DNA from: Paenibacillus physcomitrellae
GTDB taxonomy: Bacteria; Bacillota; Bacilli; Paenibacillales; Paenibacillaceae
Direction of reading: 5' to 3'
DNA: 64,000 nucleotides
Assembly (NCBI RefSeq): GCF_002240225.1
Contig: NZ_CP022584.1
Location: forward strand, 4,627,850-4,691,849
The notes under the pieces were generated by a model. It was given only the letters and a program-made list of their open reading frames with translations, was not told the DNA's origin and made no database searches. Every line of letters starts with the position of its first letter. The first letter of the stretch is position 1. Below, piece after piece: positions 657 to 26,398 of the stretch. The position numbers and the translations under genes are program-made.

Positions 657-2246
657 ATGAAATCATTTGAACAAAGTGTATACGAGCTTATTGTGGAAAC
701 CTCAACTAACCTGCCTGGTGACGTACGGATTGCGGTACAGCGGGGGAAAGCTGCTGAGAACGAGGCGACCCGGGCCGGCCTGGCGCTGTCTACGATTGTA
801 ACCAACATTGAAATGGCTGAAGATCAGGTTTCACCGATCTGTCAGGATACGGGCATGCCGACTTTTATCGTTCATACGCCGGTCGGCGCTAATCAGATTC
901 AAATGAAGCGGGAGATTCATTCCGCTATTGTCAAAGCTACCCAAGAAGGCAAGCTGCGCCCCAATTCGGTCGATTCATTAACCGGAAAAAACAGCGGAGA
1001 TAACTTGGGTCCGGGAACGCCCGTTGTTCATTTCGAGCAATGGGAGAAGGATGAAATCGATGTGCGCCTTATTCTGAAAGGCGGCGGCTGCGAAAATAAA
1101 AATATCCAGTACAGCCTTCCAACCGAACTGGAAGGACTCGGCAAAGCCGGACGCGACCTGGACGGAATCCGTAAATGCATCCTGCATGCCATCTATCAGG
1201 CTCAAGGCCAAGGCTGCAGCGCCGGCTTTCTTGGTGTGGGCATTGGCGGCGACCGGACTACCGGTTATGAGCTGGCCAAACAGCAGCTGTTCCGGCATCT
1301 GGAAGACACGAACCCTATTCCAGAATTGGCCGAGCTTGAGGCGTATATTATAGATAACGCCAACAAGCTGGGGATCGGTACGATGGGCTTCGGAGGCGAA
1401 GTGACGCTGCTTGGCTGCAAAATCGGCGTGATGAACCGGCTGCCTGCAAGCTTTTTCGTATCTGTCGCTTATAACTGCTGGGCATTCCGCCGTCAAGGCG
1501 TGTTAATCGATTCGGCCACGGGGGAGATCCGCAGCTGGATTTATCCTAGAGGCTCCGAGGTGAATATGTCCGCTCTGTCATCAGCACAGAAACAACAGGG
1601 GGCGGAAAGTGCGGCCGCGGGAGTTACCACGGAACAAACCGCTGAGCAAACGGCGGCTTCTTCTTCAAGGGAAGTGGTGCTGCAGACTCCAATCTCCGAA
1701 GAACAAATTCGGAACCTGCGCGTAGGCGATGTGGTGGTCATCAAAGGAGAAATGCATACCGGCAGGGATGCGCTGCACAAATATTTGATGGATCACGATG
1801 CGCCGATCGACCTGAACGGAGCGGTGATTTATCACTGCGGACCGGTCATGCTGAAGGACGAAGAGGGATGGCATGTCAAGGCAGCAGGTCCGACCACCAG
1901 TATTCGTGAGGAACCTTATCAAGGAGATATTCTGAAGAAATTCGGCATCCGGGCCGTGATCGGTAAAGGCGGTATGGGGCCCAAAACGCTGGCAGCTCTT
2001 CAGGAACACGGCGGCGTATACCTGAACGCAATCGGCGGAGCAGCTCAGTATTATGCGGAATGTATCAAGAAGGTTAACGGTGTGGATTTCATGGAATTTG
2101 GTGTTCCGGAAGCGATGTGGCATCTGGAGGTTGACGGTTTTGCTGCTATCGTTACGATGGATTCCCATGGCAACAGCCTGCATGCTGAAGTTGAGAAGGA
2201 TTCATTAGAGAAGCTGAGCCAGTTTAAAGATCCGGTATTCAAGTGA
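657..2246 (+). CDS. fumA: Class I fumarate hydratase, fused alpha and beta parts
   Basis: Iron-sulfur fumarase interconverting fumarate and malate in the TCA cycle, about 529 aa. The N-terminal catalytic part carries SPICQDTGMP (Cys near residue 62), KGGGCENK (near 145) and GQGCSAG with GVGIGGD (near 187), the cysteines expected to bind the [4Fe-4S] cluster. The C-terminal beta part includes GKGGMGPKT and the IGGAAQYYAE stretch. Residues about 304-340 between the halves are Ala/Gln/Ser/Thr-rich low-complexity linker. Start choice: ATG 657 or GTG 654 after AAGGGG at 641; the frame is open further upstream but that part has no family similarity. The stop codon lies inside a 10-bp tandem repeat. 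Confidence 0.9.
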   Translation: MKSFEQSVYELIVETSTNLPGDVRIAVQRGKAAENEATRAGLALSTIVTNIEMAEDQVSPICQDTGMPTFIVHTPVGANQIQMKREIHSAIVKATQEGKLRPNSVDSLTGKNSGDNLGPGTPVVHFEQWEKDEIDVRLILKGGGCENKNIQYSLPTELEGLGKAGRDLDGIRKCILHAIYQAQGQGCSAGFLGVGIGGDRTTGYELAKQQLFRHLEDTNPIPELAELEAYIIDNANKLGIGTMGFGGEVTLLGCKIGVMNRLPASFFVSVAYNCWAFRRQGVLIDSATGEIRSWIYPRGSEVNMSALSSAQKQQGAESAAAGVTTEQTAEQTAASSSREVVLQTPISEEQIRNLRVGDVVVIKGEMHTGRDALHKYLMDHDAPIDLNGAVIYHCGPVMLKDEEGWHVKAAGPTTSIREEPYQGDILKKFGIRAVIGKGGMGPKTLAALQEHGGVYLNAIGGAAQYYAECIKKVNGVDFMEFGVPEAMWHLEVDGFAAIVTMDSHGNSLHAEVEKDSLEKLSQFKDPVFK

Positions 2247-24637: not shown

Positions 24638-26122
24638 TTATCCCTCAAGTTCAACCGTTTGGGTTGCGATCTTTCGAGCGAATTCACGATCATGCTCGAC
24701 AAACACCATAGTCGGCTCATATTCCAGCAGCACCTCTTCGATCTGCATACGAGAAATAACGTCGATGAAATTAAGCGGTTCATCCCAAATATGCAGATGA
24801 GTCTGTTCGCAGAGGCTCCTTGCGATCAGCACTTTCTTTTTCTGTCCGCCGCTGAACCAAGCCATATCCTTCTCGAACTGCAGGCGGGAGAAGTCCAGCT
24901 TTCTTAAAATGGCTTTAAACAGGCTTTCGTCAATCTCCTGCTGCCGGGCGTAGTCGGACAAGCTTCCTCTTAAATTTGAAGTGTCCTGCGAAACATAGGA
25001 AATTTTCAGCTGACTGCCCTTACGGAAGGTTCCGGAGAACGAAATTTCTTCGCCAAGAATCAGCTTCAGCAGACTCGATTTGCCGGAACCATTAGGGCCG
25101 GTGACAGCAATCCGGTCGCCTTGTTCGATCGAGAAACTGACATTTTGGCACACGTTCTTCCCTTCGTAGTTAATGGATACATGATCCAATTCGGCCAACT
25201 GGGATTTCGGGTAGACAAGCTGCGAAATCTTTAGACTATCCGAAGTTTCAATGTTTTGCAGCAGCTTGGATTTCTCTTCCATTGCCGTGTGCTGCCTTTG
25301 CTCAATCGTTTTGGAGCGCTTCATCATTTTGGCAGCTTTGTGTCCAATGTAACCTTTATCGACCTTGGAACCCGAGTTGCGTGTTCCATTTTTAGTTTTC
25401 TCCACCTCTTGAGACCATTGCCCGGTTCTTTTGGAGGCGTCAGAGAGCCTTTTAATGTCTTTGTGAAGCTTCTCATTCTCATTCAGCTCATATTGATCCT
25501 GACGCTGCTTGTTGAGCCACCAGTCAGAGAAATTCCCCTTTTGAATCTCGATATTAGTTTTATTGATTGACAAAATATGGTCCACACATTGATCCAGAAA
25601 CGCACGGTCGTGGGATACCAGAATGAACCCCTTCTTCCGGCTTAAATATTGGCTGACCAGCTGTCTGGCGTGGATATCCAGATGGTTGGTCGGTTCGTCA
25701 ATCAGCAGAAAATGATTCTCTTTCAAAAACAAAGCAGCCAGCTGCACCTTGGTTTGTTCGCCGCTAGATAAGGACTCGAATGGACGGTACAAAACGTCCT
25801 CCGATAATTGCAGCAAGGACAACTCCTTTTGCAGCCGCCAATGCTCATAATCCGGGTAAATATCGCTGACCACATCATAGGTCAGGTGTTCCGGGTGCTC
25901 TACCGTAAATGGAAAATAATCAAAGCTTACCGCCGCCGAGATCGTTCCGCTGTACTCCAGTTTGCCGAGCAGCAGATTCAGGAACGTCGTTTTGCCGCGT
26001 CCATTTCTGCCCGTAAAGCCCAGTTTCCAGTCCGTATCAATTTGAAAGCTGACCTGCTCAAAGATGTTGTCATAACTTCCCTCGTAAGCAAAGGTGAGGT
26101 TGGATACGTTGATTAAAGACAT
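24638..26122 (-). CDS. Lsa-family ABC-F ribosomal protection protein
   Basis: 494 aa soluble ATPase with two ABC domains and no membrane part. First domain: GRNGRGKTTFLNLLLGKLEYSGTI, signature LSSGEQTKVQLAALF, Walker B FLLIDEPTNHLD. Linker (about 210-300) is highly charged and includes the antibiotic-resistance domain tip. Second domain: GPNGSGKSSLLKLILG, WFSGGQKKKVLIARSL, HIWDEPLNFID. MSLINVSNLTFAYEGSYDNIFEQVSFQIDTDW is nearly diagnostic of Lsa-type proteins, which dislodge lincosamides, pleuromutilins and streptogramin A from ribosomes. Start ATG 26122, five bases after GGAGGGA. Confidence 0.88.
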   Translation of the reverse strand: MSLINVSNLTFAYEGSYDNIFEQVSFQIDTDWKLGFTGRNGRGKTTFLNLLLGKLEYSGTISAAVSFDYFPFTVEHPEHLTYDVVSDIYPDYEHWRLQKELSLLQLSEDVLYRPFESLSSGEQTKVQLAALFLKENHFLLIDEPTNHLDIHARQLVSQYLSRKKGFILVSHDRAFLDQCVDHILSINKTNIEIQKGNFSDWWLNKQRQDQYELNENEKLHKDIKRLSDASKRTGQWSQEVEKTKNGTRNSGSKVDKGYIGHKAAKMMKRSKTIEQRQHTAMEEKSKLLQNIETSDSLKISQLVYPKSQLAELDHVSINYEGKNVCQNVSFSIEQGDRIAVTGPNGSGKSSLLKLILGEEISFSGTFRKGSQLKISYVSQDTSNLRGSLSDYARQQEIDESLFKAILRKLDFSRLQFEKDMAWFSGGQKKKVLIARSLCEQTHLHIWDEPLNFIDVISRMQIEEVLLEYEPTMVFVEHDREFARKIATQTVELEG

Positions 26123-26142
26123 GTGAATCCCTCCTGGTGTTG

Positions 26143-26187
26143 AAAAATAAATGAGCCACAAGAAAAGTTACTTTTCCTGCAGCTCAT
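26143..26187 (-). terminator. Leader terminator (attenuator) before the Lsa-like gene
   Basis: On the minus strand a 17-bp stem (26187-26171 with 26167-26151, three G-U pairs) closes on TAA and is followed by TTATTTTT. It ends nine bases before the RBS of the ABC-F gene, so read-through is needed for expression. Confidence 0.8.
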
Positions 26188-26398
26188 AAGAATACAACAG
26201 ACCAGTCCAGTCCCGCGGGGGCTGGAAAAGGGATATATTCAGAGTGAAGGAATAAGTAACTTCTTGCACATGCGGCCCAAAGAACAAAACAAAAAAAGCT
26301 GTTCCATTCTTTAAAACCTGGCAAGAAATTTTACATTATTCCGTCACTCCCATCGATAAGTTTGGAGTCATCATAACATATTCGGAGAAGGGCTTCAA
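26188..26398 (-). promoter_or_regulatory. Promoter and attenuator leader of the Lsa-like gene
   Basis: Promoter TTGAAG (26393-26398) and TATGAT (26370-26375), 17-bp spacer. The leader holds GGGAGTG then, eight bases later, ATG directly followed by TAA (26331-26336): a start-stop ORF. A 22-codon ORF follows at 26239-26307 with a weak RBS. Its codons for KKLLIP contain GAAGTTACTTATTCC (26249-26263), complementary to GGAAAAGTAACTT in the terminator stem (13 bp with one bulge), so an antiterminator can form instead. A stalled ribosome could choose between the folds. Confidence 0.65.
26239..26307 (-). CDS. Possible leader peptide before the Lsa-like gene
   Basis: 22 codons beginning MEQLFLF and ending in KKLLIPSL, ATG at 26307, TGA at 26239-26241. 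Only AGG ten bases upstream resembles an RBS. Its last third overlaps the antiterminator strand, which is the reason to suspect a regulatory role. Confidence 0.35.
   Translation of the reverse strand: MEQLFLFCSLGRMCKKLLIPSL

Follow-up and report, generated by a model that had tools for sequence, protein, structure and literature searches.

The gene for an Lsa-type ABC-F protein in Paenibacillus physcomitrellae is preceded by a leader that, to judge from its sequence, comparison with relatives and modelled folding, very probably works as a ribosome-mediated transcription attenuator sensing ribosomes held on a start codon. This gene lies in the window (the whole stretch of 64,000 nucleotides that was analysed), which belongs to a single-contig genome of 4.83 Mb, and its product is, by the cut-off passed for NF000167, a ribosomal protection protein of the Lsa family (table 1). 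The leader extends over 26363-26141 of the minus strand, with about 220 nt between the promoter-like hexamers and the start of lsa, and contains an ORF made of a start and a stop codon, ATG TAA, the presence of which an earlier note on this DNA had rightly reported. Sequence, conservation and mutually exclusive folds establish the leader as a conserved predicted attenuator, for which we infer the drug stall, the read-through and the range of inducers discussed below. The type of attenuator is already known; as far as sequences can tell, what would be new here is the use of a uORF with zero elongation as sensor, together with the finding of one element common to lsa and cfr.

Table 1. Features of the lsa gene and its leader in the window
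Feature	Coordinates	Strand	Basis
lsa-type ABC-F ribosomal protection gene	24638..26122	-	NF000167 (NCBIfam ABCF_Lsa_all), 752.2 bits vs cut-off 750
Shine-Dalgarno of lsa, AGGAGGG	26129..26135	-	sequence
Intrinsic terminator hairpin (26187-26151, 17 bp) and T tail	26141..26187	-	terminator in free MFE of 147/148 relatives
P3, linker hairpin between P1 and terminator, approximate limits	26191..26241	-	MFE
P1 3' arm, equal to the antiterminator strand	26242..26267	-	folding and comparison of 148 leaders
P2, variable inner hairpin in the P1 loop	26279..26312	-	MFE
P1 (anti-antiterminator hairpin) 5' arm, ending at +16 of the start codon	26321..26350	-	MFE
Start-stop ORF ATG TAA, putative drug sensor	26331..26336	-	immediate stop in 120/148 distinct leaders
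Shine-Dalgarno-like GGGAGTGA of the start-stop ORF, within P1 5' arm	26344..26351	-	sequence
Predicted sigma-A-like promoter: TTGAAG (26398-26393), 17 nt, TATGAT (26375-26370), extended -10 TG	26370..26398	-	

The earlier note had proposed that two folds exclude each other in this leader, the 5' arm of the terminator (GGAAAAGTAACTT) being able to form 13 bp, with a single bulge, with the strand 26263-26249 (minus). This pairing can indeed be read from the sequence, and in the folding of the window leader the full antiterminator helix exceeds 13 bp; the mutual exclusion holds too, except that RNA folding yields three exclusive pairings instead of two, namely the terminator, the antiterminator and the overlooked hairpin P1. 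The 5' arm of P1, which carries the start-stop ORF, normally holds the antiterminator strand, and it is for this reason that the position of the start-stop ORF matters. The fold of the leader has an energy of -86 kcal/mol, with z = -8.9 against 200 shuffles, and its free MFE structure (-86.0 kcal/mol) combines P1 with the terminator. When positions -14 to +16 of the AUG are blocked in silico, mimicking a ribosome at the start codon by a hard block in a calculation that is thermodynamic and not kinetic, the MFE of the window leader becomes the antiterminator, at -60.3 kcal/mol, and the terminator is gone.

Extending this analysis to 148 distinct relatives, we found 147 to have the terminator in their free MFE structure. 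Blocking of the start codon at equilibrium abolishes the terminator in 115 leaders and leaves it in 31, a fraction that counts against our explanation; under control blocks, placed either on the antiterminator strand or on the inner loop, 147 leaders keep their terminator in each case. Before the 3' arm of the terminator is made, an antiterminator pairing of at least 7 bp is present in 147 of the 148 leaders if blocked, versus none of the 148 if unblocked. In 121 of the 148 leaders, moreover, the antiterminator strand pairs better with its own terminator than with swapped ones, a count in which kinship is ignored. Folding, blocks and swap test together lend strong support to the earlier proposal of a ribosome-controlled switch between terminator and antiterminator before the lsa gene. 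That proposal allowed for ribosome stalling at either of two ORFs, and for one of them it is not supported: the 22-codon ORF exists at 26307-26239, as claimed, yet it is not conserved, given that L009, the closest relative (89% protein identity), is without its ATG, and that ATG ORFs of at least 15 codons that terminate at the antiterminator strand or beyond it occur in just 44 of the 148 leaders, at differing positions. A ribosome at the end of this ORF would cover the antiterminator strand, the blocking of which, as noted, keeps the terminator; stalling there is consequently unsupported as a trigger.

How would the leader respond to a ribosome that cannot leave its start codon? By default, an RNA initiated at the promoter near 26398-26370 would first fold P1, in which the antiterminator strand and the start-stop ORF are both concealed, and after that the terminator. 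A ribosome sitting at the AUG of AUGUAA, with a footprint extending to +16, would cover the whole 5' arm of P1, and the 3' arm thus freed would pair with the terminator sequence, so that the terminator could not form. In drug-free cells, initiation on AUGUAA would presumably be followed by the immediate release of fMet by a release factor, the ribosome being gone before P1 forms. Drugs blocking the A-site side of the peptidyl transferase centre, which would include lincosamides, pleuromutilins and streptogramin A, would hold the ribosome at the AUG, leading to read-through by RNA polymerase and production of Lsa. Such a sensor would be independent of nascent peptide and elongator tRNA, since no sense codon follows the start codon; it would be as simple as a ribosome-sensing leader can logically be, and it would part the sensing of initiation from context-dependent stalling in elongation. 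With regard to the signals needed for this sequence of events, an extended -10-like motif is found 13-23 nt ahead of the element in 114 of the 148 relatives, and a GG[AG]G motif lies 5-13 nt ahead of the start codon, the commonest spacing in the 148 leaders being 12 nt. Such a long distance from GGAG to the start codon counts against our explanation.

The distribution of the element was surveyed at increasing phylogenetic distance. Close homologues of lsa occur in 30 of 40 genomes of the genus, and 25 of these 30 have the same leader layout; the remaining five (L032-L036), which are lsa paralogues of about 61% identity, have a different leader, in which a uORF such as MSTSDTIVTHVVLRISH precedes a hairpin by which the Shine-Dalgarno of lsa would be masked, a candidate for translational attenuation that has a similar counterpart in lsa(B) (L249). 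In the family, lsa was detected at E <= 1e-150 in 286 of 394 genomes. For the element itself we relied on R2, a covariance model of P1 with a hand-written structure of 28 pairs and 17 well-aligned rows, which matches 208 of 388 genomes in the family (E <= 0.01) and 48 of 398 in the class (E <= 0.001). P1 being palindromic, R2 matches the opposite strand as well; the best strand was kept and the other rows were dropped. The set of 148 leaves aside L027 and L029 (with a uORF MNNFLAN), L131 (an ATG TAG recognised by eye, the match being below threshold), L195 (where the element is truncated), L212-L247 and the plasmid loci. Upstream of lsa in L097, the antiterminator strand and the terminator are kept and the uORF half is lost, a leader that one would predict to be uninducible.

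The check for covariation among Lsa homologues, which had been recommended for this leader, gave a positive outcome for P1. Changes on both sides affect 14 of 28 pairs in an alignment of 91 rows and 16 of 28 in one of 70 rows. Paired cells amount to 94.6% and 92.8%, respectively, versus 91.4% and 87.9% in shuffles; both alignments were fitted to the structure of R2 and hence lean towards it. In the 17 rows of R2 by themselves covariation is all but absent (1 of 28 pairs), and for this reason the claim rests on the larger sets. An initial alignment made without regard to structure (A1), comprising 45 of 49 leaders after L029, L043, L045 and L052 had been left out as near-duplicates, yielded no consensus fold with RNAalifold, which counts against our explanation, and R1, a sequence-only model built from A1, was not used. 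A comparison with the 4227 families of Rfam produced none at gathering score, and just two matches, both below their gathering scores.

The start-stop ORF is the most frequent, but not the sole, form of the putative sensor. Among the 148 distinct elements, 79 have ATG-TAA, 31 ATG-TAG, 9 ATG-TGA and one (L112) GTG-TAA, amounting to 120 of start-stop type, a figure that leans towards this type because R2 was trained on 14 start-stop and 3 short-ORF rows. In the remaining 28 the ORF is 2-8 codons long, examples being MDISC, MDFSC, MYISC, ME, MIK and MRK; they include L128, the GTG-TAA of which is overlapped by an ATG ORF (MDFSC). A fairer count is provided by the protein-ascertained set of 80 named loci, where 57 of the 72 having a leader are start-stop (one by eye) and 15 have short ORFs; the 8 lsa loci without the element count against our explanation. 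A tree of 113 lsa proteins implies at least 17 changes of stop codon and at least 14 exchanges between start-stop and longer ORFs, indicating that these leaders favour or tolerate zero elongation without depending on it.

This evidence needs to be weighed against other ways of reading the start-stop pair. The sensor might answer a failure of termination instead of a block of the peptidyl transferase, in which case shortage or trapping of release factors on AUGUAA would operate the switch. Met-stop is a minimal termination substrate in vitro, on which thermorubin is described to block release (PMC9938272), but the 28 leaders with sense codons before the stop share the same architecture, and TAA, TAG and TGA are all in use; a stall at the start codon fits these facts better, and we regard sensing of termination as rather unlikely. 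A different possibility is that the AUG is a by-product of the need of the stem for GUAA, the switch answering a ligand, the speed of RNA polymerase or the like. UAA is demanded by pairing too, for GUAA, which mimics the terminator arm, has to be complementary to GUUAC in the antiterminator strand, and the stop variants encountered are those retaining G-U pairs. The immediate stop may therefore be in part a by-product of structure, as TAG and TGA keep the pairing via G-U, and on the same ground we have rejected stop-codon degeneracy as a proof of selection. The start codon, however, is present in the 5' arm of P1 in all 148 elements, even when shifted by indels or apart from UAA, as in L040, L132, L081 and L139, where ATG lies 3 or 6 nt farther upstream in frame with the stop; its U is unpaired in the P1 structure, and the genes under the element are mostly for resistance to ribosome-targeting drugs. 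From sequence comparison, then, the start codon itself would be the stronger evidence for translation, and an AUG of purely structural origin appears very improbable. Least credible of all is that the start-stop ORF is decorative and a vmlR-like attenuator has its sensing ribosome on the 22-codon ORF or on the overlapping ATG GGA GTG ACG GAA TAA, for while both this 5-codon ORF and the longer one are present in the window, and known attenuators have longer uORFs, the lack of conservation and the blocking results speak against the 22-codon ORF, L009 is without the ATG of the 5-codon ORF, and 119 of 148 leaders have an ATG-stop in a stretch of 12 positions of the P1 5' arm, compared with the 2.6 that its frequency in the upstream 200 nt would lead one to expect.

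Ribosomes held on the start codon remain, therefore, the signal that we favour. Going one step further, we lean, with less assurance, towards the start-stop pair having been kept across Paenibacillaceae and their relatives as a general detector of frozen initiation, independent of peptide and elongator tRNA, that would read the competition between drug and release factor as a module common to lsa, an lsa paralogue and cfr, switching on two unrelated mechanisms of resistance.

The system of known function that best illustrates this logic is vmlR of Bacillus subtilis. As described in PMC9226507, induction there needs the Shine-Dalgarno and start codon of a uORF (MIN), at which drugs stall initiating ribosomes, with a published toeprint at 16 nt; in 97 of our 148 leaders the 5' arm of P1 ends at this same position, 16 nt from the A of the start codon. 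The same account places the vmlR uORF, ahead of an ABC-F gene as in the case of lsa, in an anti-antiterminator hairpin, with an antiterminator strand shared with the intrinsic terminator. It also reports differences from the present element: two sense codons follow the AUG, where here there are mostly none, the uORF sequence affects induction (MRK being weaker), and an additional hairpin sequesters the Shine-Dalgarno. The lsa leader has a terminator between promoter and gene and an anti-antiterminator with a shared strand, but its putative sensor ORF has no sense codon between start and stop, and neither have those of the other start-stop leaders, 120 of the 148 in all; such a codon describes the known examples of vmlR type, and the mechanism does not require one. 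In its predicted working the element resembles the vmlR attenuator.

Short uORFs with a terminator and a PLSA spectrum are likewise presented in PMC10201436 for cplR of Clostridioides difficile (MRI) and, by prediction, for lsaA (MAGN), these uORFs having three or four codons; the LsaA set of that work is limited to 80% identity and probably does not cover the present branch of Lsa. The hflXr/rli80 leader of Listeria, as depicted in PMC6310831, similarly combines terminator, antiterminator and anti-antiterminator in a ribosome-dependent attenuation by lincomycin, but with a uORF of 14 codons containing an RLR motif. Ribosome profiling in Escherichia coli and Campylobacter jejuni indicates that ribosomes bind start codons directly preceding a stop, as proposed here, whereas the C. 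jejuni sites presented in the same source (PMC11955535) are internal, out-of-frame and without the conserved leader architecture that characterizes our element. The earlier note was correct in calling the start-stop element unusual: no start-stop uORF attenuator or leader switch is described in the literature searched, the scope of which excluded most subscription journals. In uORF4u, a uORF finder applied to ABC-F leaders, the default minimum is three codons (PMC10219788), and smORFer left start-stop ORFs out of consideration (PMC8421149); start-stop switches are consequently invisible to both.

Cfr and Lsa, the drug spectra of which overlap, act on the same region of the ribosome by unrelated means, and the first recognisable gene after the element is of lsa type in 127 of the 148 loci, cfr in 19 and neither in two. 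This common placement before two unrelated resistance genes speaks for our explanation and suggests that the inducers are drugs acting at the A site of the peptidyl transferase centre. The Cfr protein of L171 scores 612 bits with TIGR04432, against a cut-off of 550 for the Cfr family, and beyond the family, lsa or cfr lies behind the element at 23 of the 24 loci inspected, the other (L216) being truncated where its contig stops. Four of the 127 lsa-type loci, L144 (1217-1605), L175, L177 and L179, have only broken or partial pieces of lsa followed by cfr, which suggests that cfr took over the leader through loss of lsa from an lsa-cfr operon.

The element also connects the chromosomal lsa and cfr of environmental bacteria to the mobile lsa(E) of enterococcal plasmids. 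In one such locus (L248, 325-450), R2 matches a P1 element with E = 4.4e-7, and the leader has homologous P1, terminator and uORF, differing in that the uORF is of six codons, M-Y-N-F-S-C; a plasmid lsa of P. urinalis has an R2-detected element with ATG-TGA. No real relative emerged when two leaders were compared with plasmids by blastn, and R2 gave no convincing match (best E 0.015) in the plasmid regions of cfr, cfr(B), cfr(D) and lsa(B), or in the L032-L036 group.

Two further observations concern what follows the element. In 18 of the 19 loci with cfr first (L150, L157, L168, L171, L172, L174 and 12 others), the interval between terminator and cfr encodes another conserved leader peptide, with SIDRCT at its end (M..EVVNVHVNRSLSVGTVHDQTKRMPEHYPSIDRCT), accompanied by a GTGAACCG/CGGTTCAC inverted repeat, which looks like a second regulatory layer. 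In L197 of genome G011 (1163-1786, plus strand), the element is followed by a Mor-like ORF and then by a lone gene for ribosomal protein L4 (Pfam Ribosomal_L4, 1.5e-65), which takes the place of lsa or cfr.
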